Shown piece by piece: positions 9,834 to 24,407 of a stretch of DNA of 24,847 nt; position 1 is the stretch's first letter; each line of letters begins with the position of its first letter. The notes beneath the pieces are model-generated. The model made no database searches and was not told the DNA's origin. It saw nothing but the letters and a program-made list of their open reading frames with translations. The position numbers were made by a program, and so were the translations under genes. This stretch comes from a virus, in IMG/VR virus record IMGVR_UViG_3300028837_001008, positions 1-24,847 of that record; one strand, 5' to 3'.

Positions 9834-9905
9834 AGCCGACACTCTGCATCGAACAGAGGACATACCCTTACAGGGGGTGCATTTTACCAACTAAACTATA
9901 TCGGC
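9834..9905 (-). tRNA. tRNA-Thr (anticodon TGT)
   Basis: A 72-base cloverleaf can be folded on the minus strand. The acceptor stem is GCCGATA/TGTCGGC (7 pairs, one G-T). The D stem is GTTT/AAAT with a G-G pair in the loop, and the T arm is CTCTG-TTCGATG-CAGAG. The anticodon arm has a 4-pair stem plus one outer C-A mismatch and the 7-base loop CCTGTAA, giving anticodon TGT (plus-strand bases 9870-9872) for ACA codons. The base after the acceptor stem is U73, as in archaeal tRNA-Thr rather than bacterial A73. No CCA is encoded. Oddly, position 33 is C instead of U. Confidence 0.8.
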
Positions 9906-15204: not shown

Positions 15205-16530
15205 TTAATCTCCAAAATCCCATAATGCTTTTCTAACAAATCCAACTACGCTTTTGCCTTTAAAGGCACGATAAGGTGTAAGTCCATATTTTAAAGCATC
15301 CATAGTGTGGTCATCAAGTTTTGCGGGGACTTCTGTTTTATTTTTCCCCGTTTTATCTTTTTCATATTGATAAGCTTGAAATTCTCTTATTGTGTGAACA
15401 CAATGTCGGTCAACATGAAGATTCATTTTCTTAAGCATAGATTTAATCTTACCTATGCCAGTATTCACATCTCGGTCTCCTTTTTCCGAAGGAATCTTTA
15501 AATCTGCTGCTTGAAATATTAAGTCAGGATTTGAGGGGTCAAAGTATACTTTTCTGAAATGTCGTTTTTCATGTCTTTTTGCGATTTCACTAACAACGAA
15601 ATGAGAAGGCTTTTCTTTTTTATAATACTCTTCTAGTATGAATACGTCTTTATCTTTGAATCCTAATGTTAATATTACACTAGGATTTGTAAAACCCCAA
15701 TCCACACCAGCCGTAATAAAATCAAAGTTCTCTAAATCTCTATAATCCCCAACATGTTTATCTGGATTAAATTCTTTATAGATTTGACCTGCAAATGCTT
15801 CCCATGTTCCATCAAGAAATCTTCTTACCCAATCCTCATCACCAGAATCTTGTGCTTCTGCAATAAATGCTTCGTAACGTGGAAGAAGTACATTATCATA
15901 AGTAGTTGTTTCAATTACGTGATAATCAGGATTTCCCCTTTTAAAGAATCTTTTATAAATCCAATGTGATTGACTACCAGGATTAGTTGTTAAAAGAATG
16001 AAAGGATTTTTATTTCTTAAGTTTCCAGTTCCCGATATTCTTAAAGTTAATTGTGCAAATATAGTTTCAGCAATTTCAATAGGTTCATCAAGTCCTACGA
16101 AATCTAAAGTCATTCCTCTAAGTTTCTCTTCTTCATCACAAGGTTTAAACCATACTTCTGAGCCATTCCAAAAAATAGCTTTCATATCTCCCTTGCTATG
16201 TTTAATTCGACATAATTGGATTGGGATATTCGCTTTGTCAAGAGCATTTTGATAATACTCTAATTCTTGTTGGAATACTTTAAATACGACATCAGTTAAT
16301 TGCGGTGTAGTTAATGAACCAAGCATACCAATACAGCCAGGATTCTCAATGCATGTTTGAATAGCAACATGAGCAAGTAGTAAGGTTTTGCCTGCTCTTA
16401 CTGCACCACTATAAAGAATGTATCTATATTTACTTATAGCACGCATGGCTCGAATTTGGACAGGAAGAAATTCTCTACCTAATTTCAAATTCATAGAAGT
16501 AATGTTATGCCCACCCTTACCCGAATCCAT
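15205..16530 (-). CDS. terL: Terminase large subunit (441 aa)
   Basis: Packaging ATPase-nuclease. Walker A is SGAVRAGKTLL near residue 42-52, Walker B is LDFVGLDEP near 141, and the coupling motif is LLTTNPGS near 184. The C-terminal RNase H-like nuclease shows AGVDWGFTNPSVILTLG (first Asp), VYFDPSNPD (second) and DDHTMDALKYGL (third acidic site). This set matches the PBSX/T4-type terminase nuclease. ATG at 16530 is chosen with AAGG upstream; the alternatives are a GTG at 16539 and an ATG at 16494. It is the first gene of the leftward unit and sits downstream of one half of the mirrored promoter. Length is typical. A separate small subunit may be the divergent HTH gene. Confidence 0.93.
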   Translation of the reverse strand: MDSGKGGHNITSMNLKLGREFLPVQIRAMRAISKYRYILYSGAVRAGKTLLLAHVAIQTCIENPGCIGMLGSLTTPQLTDVVFKVFQQELEYYQNALDKANIPIQLCRIKHSKGDMKAIFWNGSEVWFKPCDEEEKLRGMTLDFVGLDEPIEIAETIFAQLTLRISGTGNLRNKNPFILLTTNPGSQSHWIYKRFFKRGNPDYHVIETTTYDNVLLPRYEAFIAEAQDSGDEDWVRRFLDGTWEAFAGQIYKEFNPDKHVGDYRDLENFDFITAGVDWGFTNPSVILTLGFKDKDVFILEEYYKKEKPSHFVVSEIAKRHEKRHFRKVYFDPSNPDLIFQAADLKIPSEKGDRDVNTGIGKIKSMLKKMNLHVDRHCVHTIREFQAYQYEKDKTGKNKTEVPAKLDDHTMDALKYGLTPYRAFKGKSVVGFVRKALWDFGD

Positions 16531-16575
16531 CAAGAACACGCCTTAGTAATGTAAAAATGAGAGAAATTTTCTCTT

Positions 16576-16593
16576 CATTATAAGTATGTCGCC
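16576..16593 (-). repeat. Left arm of mirrored operator (18-bp inverted repeat)
   Basis: CATTATAAGTATGTCGCC here is the exact inverted copy of 16670-16687. In leftward reading it lies six bases downstream of a TATA-like ACTTTAAAT, so it probably covers the initiation region of the terminase transcript and may bind a repressor or activator. Confidence 0.8.
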
Positions 16594-16599
16594 CATTGT

Positions 16600-16608
16600 A
16601 TTTAAAGT
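16600..16608 (-). promoter_or_regulatory. TATA-box-like element of the leftward (virion) unit
   Basis: In leftward reading the sequence is ACTTTAAAT, preceded by an A-rich stretch. It matches an archaeal box A and is the exact mirror of 16655-16663. Expected initiation about 25 bases downstream, near 16577, would give a leader of roughly 47 bases to the terminase ATG. Confidence 0.6.
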
Positions 16609-16654
16609 TTTTTATAAAAAGAGTTATATTCATCTATTTTATTGAGATTAGGAG

Positions 16655-16663
16655 ACTTTAAAT
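16655..16663 (+). promoter_or_regulatory. TATA-box-like element of the rightward (replication) unit
   Basis: ACTTTAAAT preceded by the purine-rich AGGAG (possible BRE). Expected initiation about 25 bases downstream falls inside the right arm of the inverted repeat near 16686, leaving a leader of about 12 bases before the ATG at 16698. Confidence 0.6.
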
Positions 16664-16669
16664 AGTAGT

Positions 16670-16687
16670 GGCGACATACTTATAATG
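16670..16687 (+). repeat. Right arm of mirrored operator (18-bp inverted repeat)
   Basis: GGCGACATACTTATAATG is an exact inverted copy of 16576-16593. It sits six bases after the rightward TATA element, the same spacing as on the left, so both promoters share one regulatory module. Confidence 0.8.
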
Positions 16688-16697
16688 AGAAGATATT

Positions 16698-17171
16698 ATG
16701 ACTGTTGCTCAAGAAACTCGATGGAGAGCCGAATTAGAAATCCTTCAAGAATTGGGGAAAATACCTTCATCTAGGGAAATGCAAAAGTTACTTAAAGATA
16801 AATATGGAATAGAAGCTAATCATAATACAGTTAATGCCGACTTGAAGCGAGATTTGGAATTTCTTACTAAAGAAGAATACACTAATCAAAAGAATGGTAT
16901 ATTAAGTATGTTAGATACAGAAATCAACATTGCTCATAATATAGCTACTAATGAAGAGGACAGTGAACTTAAACTTAAAGCTATGAATACAGTGTCTAAA
17001 TTATCTAAAACTAAATCAGAAATTTTGATTAAATTTAGAAGGGCACAAGCTAAATTGTCTACAGAAGAAAAGCCCATTTATAATATATCTATTGGAGAAC
17101 CTATAGAAATTGATATGAAAAAATTTAATAAGTTAGAGAAGGATGCGAAAGATGTTAAGAAAATTGATTGA
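16698..17171 (+). CDS. HTH DNA-binding protein, candidate small terminase or regulator (157 aa)
   Basis: First gene of the rightward unit, divergent from terL. The N-terminal about 60 residues form a helix-turn-helix: ELEILQELGKIPSSREMQKL, then HNTVNADLKRDLEFLTKEEY. The S-R-E-x-x-x-x-L followed by T-V-x-x-D-L pattern is common to small terminase subunits and to some repressors. The centre is helical (ILSMLDTEINIAHNIATNEE, then AMNTVSKLSKTKSEI), like the oligomerisation core of TerS, and the C-terminus is acidic-basic (DMKKFNKLEKDAKDVKK). It could recognise packaging DNA or bind the mirrored operator and control both units. The start is preceded only by a short GAGAAG leader. Confidence 0.6.
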   Translation: MTVAQETRWRAELEILQELGKIPSSREMQKLLKDKYGIEANHNTVNADLKRDLEFLTKEEYTNQKNGILSMLDTEINIAHNIATNEEDSELKLKAMNTVSKLSKTKSEILIKFRRAQAKLSTEEKPIYNISIGEPIEIDMKKFNKLEKDAKDVKKID

Positions 17172-17361
17172 ATATTTACCTATTAGTAGACGAAAACACG
17201 CAAAAAGTGTAGAAGAGATTAATAAAGTAATAGCAGGTCTCGTTGAATCGGATGCAAATCATTGTCAAATAGAATTGAGCATCATTCAACAATTAGAGAA
17301 AAAACCGTTAACACAACCATCTAAGAGTACAAAAAATGATATTGACCCTTCATTTCAGTAA
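17152..17361 (+). CDS. Hypothetical small protein (69 aa)
   Basis: Overlaps the end of the HTH gene by 20 bases. ATG at 17152 is chosen with AGAAGG nine bases upstream; an ATG at 17143 is possible. The N-terminus is basic (MLRKLIEYLPISRRKHAKSV), a central helix follows (EEINKVIAGLVESDAN), and the C-terminus is polar and Pro/Ser-rich. No family recognised. It probably belongs to the same transcript as the HTH gene and the metallophosphoesterase. Confidence 0.5.
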   Translation: MLRKLIEYLPISRRKHAKSVEEINKVIAGLVESDANHCQIELSIIQQLEKKPLTQPSKSTKNDIDPSFQ

Positions 17362-17375
17362 GGATAAGGATAAAT

Positions 17376-18200
17376 ATGGAAATAAATGTTAAGACAATAA
17401 AGATAAAAGATGAAGTAACATGGTATCACATCATACCCATTGGTGATATACATATAGGTAATATTGGTTGTGATATCGAAAAACTTAAAAAATTAGTTGC
17501 GTGGATAAAAGCAAAAGATAATGTATATTGGATTGGTATGGGTGATTTTCTTGATTGTATTAACATGTCAGATAAACGATTTGACCCTCAAACTGTTGCC
17601 CCTGAATTTAGAGATGCGTTAGATAATCTTGTACCGATGCAAATGCATAAAGTTACTGAAATACTTGAACCCATTAAAGAAAAATGTTTAGGATTACATG
17701 AAGGTAATCACGAAAGAAAAATAAGATTGAAATATCATTATGACCCTATATATGAGATATGGAAGTCATTTAACATGCCTAGTATACCAATGCTTAAAGA
17801 TGCAGCAATAACTAGATTACGATTTATAGCACAATCTAAAAACAAAAAACAACCCTCTTATACGTATGATATTTTTAGTGTGCACGGTAATGTCGGTGGT
17901 CGAAAAGGTGGTGCGAAATTAAATAGATTAGAAGATATGTGTGCAAATTTTCAAGCTGATATATACTTAATGGCTCACTCCCATATTAAATTAACAGAGT
18001 CTAAGTCACAATTATATGTAGATAACAGATTAAACTTAAGACGGACTAAAAAAGTGTTAGCCGTTACTGGATGTTTTTTGAATGGCTATACTGAGGGTGC
18101 AGGTGGATATTGTGAACAATGGATGTTATCACCTACTATGACAGGCGTAGTAAAAATATCAATACGACCAGTTCAACGAGATTTACATATTTCTGAATAG
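17376..18200 (+). CDS. Calcineurin-like metallophosphoesterase (274 aa)
   Basis: All metal-binding motifs are readable in order: IGDIHIG (Asp 24, His 26), MGDFLD (Asp 57), EGNHERK (Asn 111, His 112), VHGNVGG (His 170), and MAHSHIK (His 201, His 203). The two-metal centre hydrolyses phosphoesters; the family includes nucleases such as Mre11/SbcD and nucleotide phosphatases. Similar genes occur in many tailed viruses beside packaging or replication genes, with unclear substrates. Length is typical for the viral stand-alone form and no capping domain is obvious. The start has AAGGATAAAT as ribosome binding site. Confidence 0.85.
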   Translation: MEINVKTIKIKDEVTWYHIIPIGDIHIGNIGCDIEKLKKLVAWIKAKDNVYWIGMGDFLDCINMSDKRFDPQTVAPEFRDALDNLVPMQMHKVTEILEPIKEKCLGLHEGNHERKIRLKYHYDPIYEIWKSFNMPSIPMLKDAAITRLRFIAQSKNKKQPSYTYDIFSVHGNVGGRKGGAKLNRLEDMCANFQADIYLMAHSHIKLTESKSQLYVDNRLNLRRTKKVLAVTGCFLNGYTEGAGGYCEQWMLSPTMTGVVKISIRPVQRDLHISE

Positions 18201-18207
18201 TGATTCT

Positions 18208-18333
18208 ATGACAAATAAAAAGGCAGATGATTCTTTAGACTCTCATGCAATAAAACGAAAAGACGGTTCGCTTGATGAGAAAGCAGAACATAGAGCTATT
18301 TTAAAAGAATTAAAAAGATTAGGTTTAAGATGA
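18208..18333 (+). CDS. Small charged protein upstream of the primase (41 aa)
   Basis: A short frame with ATG at 18208 ending TGA at 18331-18333, overlapping the primase start by four bases (ATGA), so the two are likely translationally coupled. It starts seven bases after the metallophosphoesterase stop. The sequence is hydrophilic, rich in Lys, Asp and Glu (TNKKADDSLDSHAIKRKDGS) with a C-terminal helix (HRAILKELKRLGLR). No family recognised. Confidence 0.5.
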   Translation: MTNKKADDSLDSHAIKRKDGSLDEKAEHRAILKELKRLGLR

Positions 18334-20504
18334 CACTTAAAATTCCTAAACAGTTAAGGGGTGTACAATTTAGATTTATTAAAATACGCCCCAAGTCTAA
18401 GAAAGCATCAGAAAAAAATTGGCAAGAATCTTACAATTATAAATATGATGAGGTAGCTTTTAAAGATTATTTAAGACATGCCACAGGTTATGGTGTATTA
18501 TGTGGATTTGGAAAACTCGCTGTAATAGATTGTGACAAAGAGGAATTTGCAAAACATCTTTATATGAATTTGCCTCCGACATTTAGCATTACTACTGGCT
18601 CTGGAGGACTCCATTTATACTATATAATTAAGGATTTAGATAAGAAAATAATAGTTACTGATACCAAAGATGTTCATCATGGAGAAGTACAATTTAATGG
18701 GTCTTATGTTCTAGGTGCAGAATCTATTCATCCAACTTCGGGCACACTTTACAAGATAAAAAACGATATGGAAATTCAAACTATCACCAAAAAACAACTT
18801 CTTGAAGCTTTAGAACCTTTTTTGAAAAAAGAGGATAAGTTTATAGAGACTACCTCAACTGGATTGAATTGGGATATAGGAGTAATTCTCAAAACTCTTA
18901 GAGGTATACAAGAAGAAAGAGAAACAGATGAAGGTATTGAACATTGGGGACAGCATCCCATACATGGCTCAAAAGATGGCGATGAAGGAAGTAATTTTAA
19001 TCTGAATCCCACTAAAAATGTTTGGCATTGTTATAGATGTGGAACAGGTGGAGACGCATTGTCTCTTGTTGCCATACTAAATGGTTTAGTGAAGTGTGAA
19101 GATTGCAAACCTGGGTTCTTTAGCACCAAGGAGGGAAAAGAGATTTTCCTAAAGGCTAAAAAAATTGGGATGCAGAAATATGGTTTTGAAGATGCTCGTT
19201 TATTATTATTTTATAGAGGAAAACGTAAAGGAGCATTATTGGTAAAGGATATTGTTGATTATATAAAACTACAATGTCAATTTATAACAGTACGAGATTC
19301 TACAGGAAGATTACCTCATATATATGCCTATGAAGATGGCTACTATAAATTATTTGGTGAGGATTTAATTGTGCAACAGCTAAAGAAAATTCTTGATAAT
19401 CAAGATGTTCCTTATAAAATACAGTATAAAAATGAGATTTTAGATTATATCAAAACTGAAAATGTAGTTGACAGGGATGAAATAAGTCCACCAAAGCATT
19501 TATTGAATCTTAATAACGGAATTTATAACACAATTTCCAAAAAGCTTATACCTCATAGTCCAAAGCATTATTTCCTTTACAAAATTCCCTGGGATTATAA
19601 ACCAAAGGCTAAATGTCCAAAAGTTATGAAATACTTAGAAAGTACCCTAAAGCCTGAATTTATTGACTTAACTCAAGAGATATTTGGGTATTGCTTAATG
19701 TTTGACTATCGACATGCAGCCATTTTCTATCTCTATGGAACAGGTGGAAACGGCAAGAAAATTTGGACTAAAATGCTAGAGCATATGCTTGGTGCTAAAA
19801 ACGTAGCGAATAAATCTATTGATAGTTTAATAAGATTTAGATTTACCTCTGCACTTCTCTATGGGAAACTTGCGAACATTTGCGGTGAACTTACTTCATC
19901 GGTATTAAAAGATACGGACATGTTAAAAAGTTTAAGTGGTGGAGATTCAATACAAGCAGAATTTAAAGGAAAGGATGGATTTGATTTCGAGAATAGAGCT
20001 AAGATTATCACAGCTTGCAACTCTATTCCTTATTGTAAAGATATGACCGATGGATGGTATCAAAGACAGATTGTGATTCCATTTTTAAAGAAATTCAGGC
20101 ATACCAAACAAGAAGATACAGAACTACTTGACAAATTATTAATACAAAAAGAGATGGAAGGTCTATTAGCATGGTCACTTGTAGGAATGCATAGATTATT
20201 AGAAAATAAACAGTTTTCATACCCTATAGATAGAAAAGAACGTTATTTAATGTATAGGGATAATACTCGATATTTTGTACATAAATTCTTCAAAAAAACC
20301 TCAGATATTAATGATACTATTAAATCAGACGATATTTATGAATATTATTGCAAATGGTGCAAAGAAAATAGTATCCCTACTGAGAGTAAAAATGCTTTGG
20401 GTAGAGCCTTTACATACTCAAATATAACATTTGATAGAGTATTAGAAAAGGGGAATCATAAATATACGGATATAAGAAGATATGTTATAAAAGTAGTAAC
20501 ATAA
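18330..20504 (+). CDS. Primase-polymerase with zinc finger fused to SF3/D5-like helicase (724 aa)
   Basis: Replication protein. The N-terminal domain (about 1-165) is a primase-polymerase of the archaeo-eukaryotic type: AVIDCDKEE (Asp 67, Asp 69), TGSGGLHLYY (S-G-G-x-H) and GEVQFNGSYVLG. A zinc-binding segment follows: VWHCYRCGTGGDALSLVAIL with CEDC (Cys 234, 237, 256, 259). The C-terminal domain (about 390-650) is an SF3/D5 helicase: Walker A GTGGNGKK at 470-477, Walker B-like NICGE near 516-520, sensor ITACN near 560, and an arginine finger in WYQRQ near 579. The residue after the Walker Lys is Lys instead of Ser/Thr, which is unusual. The C-terminus is a winged-helix-like region. This architecture is typical of archaeal mobile elements. 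Confidence 0.9.
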   Translation: MTLKIPKQLRGVQFRFIKIRPKSKKASEKNWQESYNYKYDEVAFKDYLRHATGYGVLCGFGKLAVIDCDKEEFAKHLYMNLPPTFSITTGSGGLHLYYIIKDLDKKIIVTDTKDVHHGEVQFNGSYVLGAESIHPTSGTLYKIKNDMEIQTITKKQLLEALEPFLKKEDKFIETTSTGLNWDIGVILKTLRGIQEERETDEGIEHWGQHPIHGSKDGDEGSNFNLNPTKNVWHCYRCGTGGDALSLVAILNGLVKCEDCKPGFFSTKEGKEIFLKAKKIGMQKYGFEDARLLLFYRGKRKGALLVKDIVDYIKLQCQFITVRDSTGRLPHIYAYEDGYYKLFGEDLIVQQLKKILDNQDVPYKIQYKNEILDYIKTENVVDRDEISPPKHLLNLNNGIYNTISKKLIPHSPKHYFLYKIPWDYKPKAKCPKVMKYLESTLKPEFIDLTQEIFGYCLMFDYRHAAIFYLYGTGGNGKKIWTKMLEHMLGAKNVANKSIDSLIRFRFTSALLYGKLANICGELTSSVLKDTDMLKSLSGGDSIQAEFKGKDGFDFENRAKIITACNSIPYCKDMTDGWYQRQIVIPFLKKFRHTKQEDTELLDKLLIQKEMEGLLAWSLVGMHRLLENKQFSYPIDRKERYLMYRDNTRYFVHKFFKKTSDINDTIKSDDIYEYYCKWCKENSIPTESKNALGRAFTYSNITFDRVLEKGNHKYTDIRRYVIKVVT

Positions 20505-22308: not shown

Positions 22309-22439
22309 AATGTTCAAAATGTGGTAGGAATATGCAAATGGTGATGGATACTCCACTTTGCCCTATTTGTAATGCAGATGTTATTTTTGAATTAAATGCA
22401 TATGTAAAATACGATTTAATAGCAAACAATAAATCATAG
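22284..22439 (+). CDS. Zinc-ribbon protein (51 aa), loosely Com-like
   Basis: ATG at 22284 is preceded by GGTG four bases upstream. It has LKCSKCGRNM and PLCPICNADV, two CxxC pairs 13 residues apart, then a hydrophobic strand. Its size and layout are loosely like phage Mu Com, a zinc-ribbon translational activator of mom, and a Mom-like gene lies about 1.2 kb downstream; this link is speculative. Its stop lies within the first copy of the promoter/leader repeat. Confidence 0.5.
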   Translation: MCKLSYELKCSKCGRNMQMVMDTPLCPICNADVIFELNAYVKYDLIANNKS

Positions 22440-22496
22440 TATATAAATGTTACTTACCTATATCAAATATGCGTAGGTAATCATTTTTGAGTACCT
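22425..22496 (+). repeat. Promoter/leader element, copy 1
   Basis: About 72 bases closely related to 22651-22720. It has a TATA box (TATATAAA, 22440-22447), then segment A TTACCTA (22454-22460), segment B TAGGTAA (22474-22480) and segment C TACCT (22492-22496). B can pair with A or with C, not both. GGTGA and the ATG of the 43-aa gene follow directly. Confidence 0.65.
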
Positions 22497-22639: not shown

Positions 22640-22650
22640 AAAGCATAGGT

Positions 22651-22720
22651 AACAATAACTCTTAGTATATAAACATTACCTTAGTATTAATTATGCGCAG
22701 GTAATCATCTTTGAGTACCT
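22651..22720 (+). repeat. Promoter/leader element, copy 2
   Basis: About 70 bases matching 22425-22496 with substitutions and a two-base length difference. TATA is TATATAAA (22666-22673). Segment A ATTACCT (22675-22681), B AGGTAAT (22699-22705) and C TACCT (22716-22720) keep their complementarity although the bases of the arms have shifted by one, as if selected for pairing. Confidence 0.65.
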
Positions 22721-23538: not shown

Positions 23539-23556
23539 TCCGTTAATCCTCAATGA
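23534..23556 (+). repeat. Direct repeat, copy 1, upstream of the tRNA-mom cassette
   Basis: GCGATTCCGTTAATCCT followed by CAATGA matches 24385-24407 at 20 of 23 positions. It lies just before tRNA-Gly. Confidence 0.65.
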
Positions 23557-23559
23557 AAT

Positions 23560-23631
23560 GCGAGATAAGTCTAAAGGGTAAGACGTCTGACCTCCAATCA
23601 GAAAGTGCAGGTTCAATTCCTGTATCTCGCA
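23560..23631 (+). tRNA. tRNA-Gly (anticodon TCC)
   Basis: A 72-base cloverleaf. The acceptor stem is GCGAGAT/ATCTCGC (7 perfect pairs), the D stem GTCT/AGAC, the anticodon stem TCTGA/TCAGA with loop CCTCCAA, and the T arm GCAGG-TTCAATT-CCTGT. The anticodon TCC (23593-23595) reads GGA. The discriminator is A73, as in archaeal and not bacterial tRNA-Gly, and CCA is not encoded. Position 33 is C instead of U and position 8 is A instead of U, so structure or modification may be unusual. The mom-like ATG begins two bases after it. Confidence 0.85.
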
Positions 23632-23633
23632 CT

Positions 23634-24407
23634 ATGTATGTAATAAAGGTTATCTCCAAAGATGAAGCATTCCGATTAATTTGGAAGTTTCATTACAACA
23701 ATACACTTCCTAGACTTATAAAACACTGTTTAGGTGGATTTGTTAATGGAGAACTTGTTGCAGTAATGACATTGGGATGGGGTGTTAGACCATTGCATAC
23801 AATCAGAAAATTATTTCCGTCACTAACAGCACAGGATTATTATGAAAATGGTAGAATGTGTTTAGATGATAAAATGCCAAGGAATAGTGAAAGTCAATTT
23901 ATATCAGAATGTGTAAAGTTTATAAAACAACATTATCCAAATATTAAAGTATTATTTAGTTGGTCAGATGGTATGCTCGGTAAACCTGGGTATGTTTATC
24001 AAGCATCAGGATTTTTGTATGGTGGGTATATTTGGACAGATTCATATTTTTCTAAGAAAGGAGAAAGAATACATCCTAGGCAAACTAATCGTATAGGTGG
24101 TAGACCTACATGGGGACAAATGAACAAGTTAGACTGGCTACATTTTCGTGGAAAGCAATTTAAATATTGTAGATTCATCTGCTCACATAAAGAAAGAAAA
24201 CAATTATTGAGAGAATCAACAGTTAAATGGACAATGGATTTCCCAAAAGAAAAAGATTTAGCATGGAAAGTCAGAACCTTAAATGGATGGGAAGAGAGCA
24301 AAAAGCCCTTTTATGATTCAAATGAATTAGTACATAATAAAAAAATAGGAGAAAAACGAAAAGCATTATTGTATTCCCACATGAGCGTTTCCGTTAATCC
24401 TGAGTGA
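23634..24407 (+). CDS. Mom-like DNA modification protein (257 aa)
   Basis: The upstream in-frame ATG at 23553 lies before and across the tRNA, so the start is taken at 23634. The sequence resembles the phage Mu Mom family (GNAT-like fold): an N-terminal WKFHYNNTLP (residues 17-26), a strand pair GGFVNGELVAVMTLGWG at about 34-50, GRMCLDDKMPRNSES at about 73-87, a helix and strand ending KVLFSWSDG, and YVYQASGFLYGGYIW at about 120-134. Mom converts adenine in DNA to a carbamoylmethyl form and protects phage DNA from restriction. No ribosome binding site precedes the ATG. The C-terminal residues (SVSVNPE) are encoded by a copy of the direct repeat. No canonical com gene is adjacent. Confidence 0.75.
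   Translation: MYVIKVISKDEAFRLIWKFHYNNTLPRLIKHCLGGFVNGELVAVMTLGWGVRPLHTIRKLFPSLTAQDYYENGRMCLDDKMPRNSESQFISECVKFIKQHYPNIKVLFSWSDGMLGKPGYVYQASGFLYGGYIWTDSYFSKKGERIHPRQTNRIGGRPTWGQMNKLDWLHFRGKQFKYCRFICSHKERKQLLRESTVKWTMDFPKEKDLAWKVRTLNGWEESKKPFYDSNELVHNKKIGEKRKALLYSHMSVSVNPE
24371..24382 (+). repeat. Short direct repeat GTATTCCCACAT, copy 1
   Basis: The 12-base string recurs exactly at 24728-24739; in both cases a GCG(A/T)TT motif follows after two bases. Confidence 0.55.
24385..24407 (+). repeat. Direct repeat, copy 2, at the end of the mom-like gene
   Basis: GCGTTTCCGTTAATCCT followed by GAGTGA. It matches 23534-23556 with three differences, and it encodes the C-terminus and stop of the mom-like gene. 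Confidence 0.65.

Follow-up and report, generated by a model that had tools for sequence, protein, structure and literature searches.

The locus analysed here raises the question of why two divergent promoters of one virus carry the same sequence behind their TATA boxes in mirror image, and whether structural and replication genes share a regulator. The window, meaning the whole stretch of DNA that was analysed, comprised 24,847 bases of a seemingly incomplete virus record, which was without the polymerase operon. The leftward structural unit opened with the large terminase subunit (TerL), whose start codon was uncertain (ATG 16530 or near). The rightward unit encoded a 157-aa HTH protein, a phosphoesterase and a PrimPol/D5 primase-helicase (Table 1). 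The window also held tRNA-Thr(TGT) at 9834-9905 (-) and tRNA-Gly(TCC) at 23560-23632 (+), and tRNA-Thr(TGT) occurred in the genomes of the relatives L096 and L097 as well; an Rfam search returned tRNAs only. A Mom-like DNA modification protein was encoded at 23553-24407 (Pfam PF25680, 7e-42), with no match in the other relatives examined. Since its listed start overlaps tRNA-Gly, the true start is probably near 23634.

Table 1. Features of the mirrored promoter region and of the gene units on either side, in window coordinates
Feature	Position	Strand	Basis
TATA box TTTAAATA, structural-gene promoter (TerL, portal, capsid and others)	16599..16606	-	Sequence; octamer enrichment
Left arm, virus-specific element GGCGACATACTTATAATGA after left TATA box	16575..16593	-	Sequence comparison
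TATA box TTTAAATA, HTH / phosphoesterase / primase-helicase operon	16657..16664	+	Sequence
Right arm, identical element GGCGACATACTTATAATGA after right TATA box, same register	16670..16688	+	Sequence comparison
AT-rich 50-bp centre separating the TATA boxes, with the BRE positions of both promoters	16607..16656	.	
Terminase large subunit, first gene of leftward structural unit	15205..16530	-	Pfam Terminase_3 4.5e-14, PHROG 2 1.1e-40
157-aa HTH protein, first gene of rightward unit	16698..17171	+	Layout: HTH, two long helices, C-terminal tail
Calcineurin-like phosphoesterase, rightward unit	17376..18200	+	Pfam PF00149 2.4e-6, PHROG 7339 2.1e-24
PrimPol/D5 primase-helicase, rightward unit	18330..20504	+	Pfam PF09250, PF08706, PF19263; PHROG 864 1.5e-83

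The 18-bp inverted repeat, the 9-bp TATA-like inverted repeat and their equal spacing, all described in the initial annotation, were confirmed. The exact 18-mer GGCGACATACTTATAATG was located at 16670-16687 (+) and 16576-16593 (-), each time after an outward-facing TATA box and in identical register. The 9-mer TATA motif ACTTTAAAT occupied 16600-16608 (-) and 16655-16663 (+) and was followed on both sides by six bases and then the arm. Sites related to GGCGACATACTTATAATG by up to three mismatches numbered two in the window, both of them the arms, compared with a chance expectation of 0.04, which places the arrangement far beyond chance. The match between the arms extended one base beyond the 18-mer, to 19 nt. 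The whole inverted repeat measured 39 nt at 85% complementarity with 46 nt between its halves and was the longest of the window. The six bases separating each TATA box from its arm were unlike, with ACAATG on the left and AGTAGT on the right, and the arm sequence was asymmetric, without a dyad. A role of the arms as an RNA hairpin or a cruciform was set aside, because each transcript would hold a single arm and the loop of a cruciform would have to span about 46 nt.

The sequence TTTAWATA was found 26 times at positions -60..-21 of ORF starts in this virus group, with nine occurrences expected. The TATA octamer and its enrichment before genes point to archaeal-type promoters, and the virus, an uncultivated tailed one, probably infects archaea. 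PMC8553660 and PMC7289017 place the TATA box of such promoters about 25-28 bp upstream of the start. At this usual distance, the arm would cover the expected start site, from about -17 to +3. A GTDB host search by TerL retrieved only two Clostridia MAG loci, with terminases about 25% identical. The nearest annotated relatives of TerL, primase and polymerase were bacterial phages with about 22-36% identity. This kinship, together with 10 of 12 consensus matches on both strands of the window, would suit a bacterial sigma-70 promoter pair of an ordinary bacteriophage, with TTTAAA, 18 bp and TATAAT on both strands and the -10 box inside the arm. In the relatives, however, the spacing to the -10-like hexamer varied from 12 to 18 bp, so that 16-18 bp was not kept, whereas the TTTAWATA octamer was constant. 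TTGACA was not enriched before genes, unlike TTTAWATA, and a sigma-70 pair would leave the shared virus-specific element to be explained. This alternative is regarded as highly improbable.

Terminase and HTH-protein scans yielded 16 further IMG/VR genomes as relatives, with TerL about 52-95% or the HTH protein 60% identical. The search of related viruses for the same module, suggested in the initial annotation, had a divided outcome. An exact module scan of IMG/VR found the window's exact module in no other virus, but a virus-specific form of the mirrored pair was present in L003, L004 and L096. In these three viruses, mirrored arms stood in the window's register with another sequence (GCAAACATATTAT..TGAGGATAG in L003, GGCGAYATACTATTGGCGA in L004 and AAAAAYATARTTATAAGTGGA in L096). 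Each arm fitted its own partner and not those of other viruses, with self scores of 16.5-20 against cross scores of at most 11.5, and none of 20,000 permutations scored as high. Among the window, L003 and L004, 5 to 8 of 31 arm columns were altered in both arms, and at 5-6 of these columns the two arms had changed to the same base. The distance from TATA box to TATA box was 51 in the window, 59 in L003, 66 in L004 and 57 in L096, and a fixed helical phasing between the arms was ruled out because of this variation. A weaker mirror was detected in L149/L150, with GGGCGT at the same offset followed by ATGGAGA in a shifted position, and 12/24 matches at fixed register. The more distant TerL relatives L155-L164 contained no clear mirror, with partial resemblance only in L156/L157.

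Arms that change jointly between close relatives might also result from a mutation process that equalises them, namely template switching or gene conversion between the inverted copies, with no common binding protein. Nearby inverted repeats are known substrates for this kind of correction. However, the six-base spacers have remained side-specific, and the substitutions confined to a single arm formed a mosaic rather than copied tracts. Evidence from promoters outside the mirror, given below, also bears on this explanation.

In L092, L093, L094, L095, L006 and L088, the mirror was absent and the TerL promoter held another conserved element with CTTATATTWAT. This element read TTTRCCACCTTATATTWAT in three of the six relatives, about 30 nt past the start of the TATA box; the TerL promoters of the window, L003, L004 and L096 lacked it. 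Neither the mirror nor this element was clearly present in L097, L098 and L100. Contig ends cut off L005 and L101/L102 at the region, and L099 was rearranged next to TerL. On the TerL tree, mirrored viruses occupied two places, the clade of the window, L003 and L004, and L096, whose sister L097 was unmirrored; the mirror needs two changes on this tree. Because several relatives keep the different conserved element, including L092, the nearest of them with the region complete, an exchange of the structural-promoter element in two lineages is the simplest history. Loss, rather than exchange, is a less simple alternative. Retention of the genes without the mirrored arms, which the initial annotation had counted against its own reading, was observed in several relatives. 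The element itself survives this observation, being common to both replication promoters in L094, L097, L099 and L100.

The arm was not confined to the divergent region. A third copy, again standing behind a TATA box at the same spacing, was detected at G002:44892-44910 in L004 and at G003:5762-5782 in L096, more than 13 kb and 15 kb from the mirror, respectively. Both third copies lay inside the 5' end of a zinc-ribbon ORF heading a gene cluster, which continues to genes for an SSB-like protein and a family A DNA polymerase, all names in this cluster being taken from sequence. At L105:3968-4444 (-) and L106:4050-4316 (-), the third promoter copy was in frame within the 5' end of the zinc-ribbon ORF. 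The zinc-ribbon protein may have an N-terminal extension encoded by the TATA box and arm, or its gene may start downstream of the promoter copy. A cysteine-synthase-like auxiliary gene, named by sequence only, was observed beside replication genes in two relatives, at L105:468-1415 (-) and L006:151-1107 (-), and the L096 genome contained a ThyX-like gene at L106:4919-5545.

In the unmirrored L097 and L100, the equivalent internal promoter matched the HTH promoter of its own virus. In L094, L006 and L099, the third promoter was found by gene position, and its identity to the HTH promoter was 18/24, 6/24 and 21/24, respectively, with GGCCTCTATACTATTAGAGG at both L099 promoters. Across the seven readable genomes, identity between the HTH and polymerase promoters was 24, 19, 18, 17, 6, 21 and 19 of 24, against a between-virus mean of 8.4. 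The promoter of the HTH/primase operon and the internal promoter of the SSB/DNA-polymerase operon carried the same block in 6/7 genomes. No other pairing equalled the true virus pairing in summed identity (exact permutation, 1/5040 for seven genomes), a value that is somewhat optimistic because the third promoter of L004, L096, L097 and L100 was first spotted by similarity, although its operon place was equivalent; L094 and L099 are free of this bias. Altogether, one virus's element was carried by two promoters in the window, L003, L094, L097, L099 and L100 and by three in L004 and L096. At L132 and L133 of the L099 genome, the shared element GGCCTCTATACTATTAGAGG formed a dyad (CCTCTA/TAGAGG), in contrast to the window's arms, which are asymmetric. 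For the equalising mutation process, the matching of a copy so distant from the mirror and the agreement of HTH and polymerase promoters in the unmirrored L094, L097, L099 and L100 are difficult to accommodate, and it is considered distinctly unlikely.

The arm might instead be nothing but a strong core promoter tuned to the host, made up of a proximal element, the melted region, the start site and ribosome-binding purines, without a viral regulator. It sits where such elements sit, and its 3' half is rich in A and T, resembles that of other viruses and in many cases precedes GAGG/GGAG. The match within viruses, 17-24 of 24 in all but one genome, nevertheless exceeds what generic features would give. 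Other TATA promoters of the same virus differed in sequence, and the TerL promoters of most relatives did not follow. In the arm-bearing genomes, most other TATA-like sites were without an arm. Two look-alike tandem promoters before small ORFs were observed in the window at 22419-22496 and 22645-22720 (AGTATATAAA..., ATGCGYAGGTAATCATYTTTGAGTACCT); they were 83-89% identical and had an AGGTA/TACCT dyad. Their post-TATA sequence differed from the mirrored arms. Since these two promoters and most other TATA sites lack it, the arm is not a general requirement of the host core promoter, and the core-promoter explanation as a whole is judged unlikely.

The initial annotation had proposed one DNA-binding protein for both transcription units and had named the 157-aa HTH protein as a candidate. 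The linkage of structural and replication genes fits the comparison, in which relatives keep two promoter types, but the candidate does not. Its HTH (residues 23-54) differed by one residue among the window, L003 and L004, whose arms are unlike, and the protein was also kept in viruses without the mirror. By its layout and its place beside TerL, it is probably the small terminase subunit (TerS). The structural model predicted helices 3-19, 25-36, 42-54, 58-85 and 89-122 at a mean pLDDT of 73, arranged as a three-helix HTH, a long hairpin and a tail. This agrees with the TerS layout of an N-terminal HTH, a helical oligomerisation hairpin and a neighbouring TerL, the gene being divergent from TerL. 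No family match was obtained in Pfam, PHROGs or NCBIfam and nothing convincing among PDB sequences, and a direct profile comparison with a small terminase and an HTH protein, both annotated next to TerL in phages, was negative. A fold search listed 44RR gp16 (Z 7.7) and T6 TerS (Z 7.6) among many unrelated helical matches.

With a TerS-like gene on one side and TerL on the other, the region could be a packaging (pac) site in which the mirrored arms are two binding sites of the 157-aa protein, acting as small terminase subunit; pac phages are known to have paired sites near terS. Against this, the arms hold register with the TATA boxes, a further copy stands at a distant promoter, the arm-to-arm distance varies, the TerS-like HTH is near-constant while the arms vary, and many relatives possess both genes without the mirror. 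A pac site is hardly credible on these grounds. No gene stood out as swapping in step with the arms. The fastest-evolving neighbour was a 72-aa ORF behind the HTH gene (17143-17361), with 53% identity between window and L003, where its neighbours had 94% and 84%. It showed no known domain in Pfam or PHROG.

The mirrored arms are a real and informative regulatory feature and are kin to known virus-specific promoter elements. As far as the sequence comparison indicates, the common denominator is the virus-specific post-TATA block of both replication promoters and not the mirror, which arises because the structural promoter also bears this block. With moderate confidence, we favour the explanation that a virus-specific regulatory element of the replication promoters was adopted by the structural promoter, which would place both under one factor. 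The TerL promoter would have swapped a late-type element for the replication-type block twice, once in the clade of the window and once in L096. A single sequence-specific factor, probably one encoded by the virus, would then act jointly on the structural and the replication promoters. We infer such a factor because the matching exceeds core-promoter features and because close relatives show concerted change. It would most likely be a repressor that keeps RNA polymerase from loading. The position of the arm at about -17 to +3, which in archaeal-type promoters is where the polymerase is loaded, would suit such occlusion. Element and factor would drift jointly between viruses, like the operators and immunity repressors of temperate phages. 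Two observations count against parts of this explanation. The asymmetric arm lacks the dyad usual for dimeric repressors, the L099 element being the only dyad, and the replication promoters of L006, at 6/24, speak against sharing.

A putative link of the arms to immunity-type operator turnover is plausible. The further-reaching version, an arms race of the immunity type among tailed archaeal viruses, is put forward only tentatively. Close relatives would then differ in the specificity of their operators, which a virus-encoded regulator would have fixed in concert at two or three main promoters, and two lineages would have brought the structural operon under the same operator. If true, the split between early and late promoters would have been removed in these two lineages. 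To our knowledge, almost nothing is known about when and how specifically tailed viruses of uncultivated archaea transcribe their genes. A short recognisable element that is matched at the main promoters and rewritten between close relatives offers a handle on the regulon and its regulator. The viruses also represent a natural experiment, with structural genes under a late-type element in some and under a replication-type element in others.

Several known systems are comparable in part. AvtR of an Acidianus virus and C68 of pSSVx are single DNA-binding proteins that operate between adjacent or divergent promoters of an archaeal element; in these cases the binder has been identified, and no mirrored site at a fixed distance from the two TATA boxes is described (PMC5569661). 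The operators and stoperators of Cluster A mycobacteriophages resemble the arms as repeated sites within a genome whose consensus varies between related phages. They differ in number, with 20-30 sites per genome, mostly off promoters, compared with two or three at promoters here, and in having a known repressor and a bacterial host (PMC6550527). Repressors of archaeal viruses act at promoters, usually by occlusion (PMC5569661). The sites of F55 of SSV1 overlap the start site and the BRE of several early promoters and provide coordinate control (PMC5569661); for the arms, overlap with the start would follow from the usual TATA-box distance. F55 is a known ribbon-helix-helix protein and binds tandem ATAGATAG repeats (PMC5569661), whereas the element described here is a single, longer and asymmetric block. 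In SIRV1 and SIRV2 promoters, the TATA box is followed by a GTC motif peculiar to these viruses (Kessler et al. 2004, as cited in PMC5569661). The GTC motif is like the present element in being virus-specific, in its position just after the TATA box, in its occurrence at several promoters per virus and in its proposed regulatory role. The element described here is distinguished by its greater length, by differing in step between close relatives, by its occurrence in a tailed virus and by joining or leaving the structural promoter between clades.
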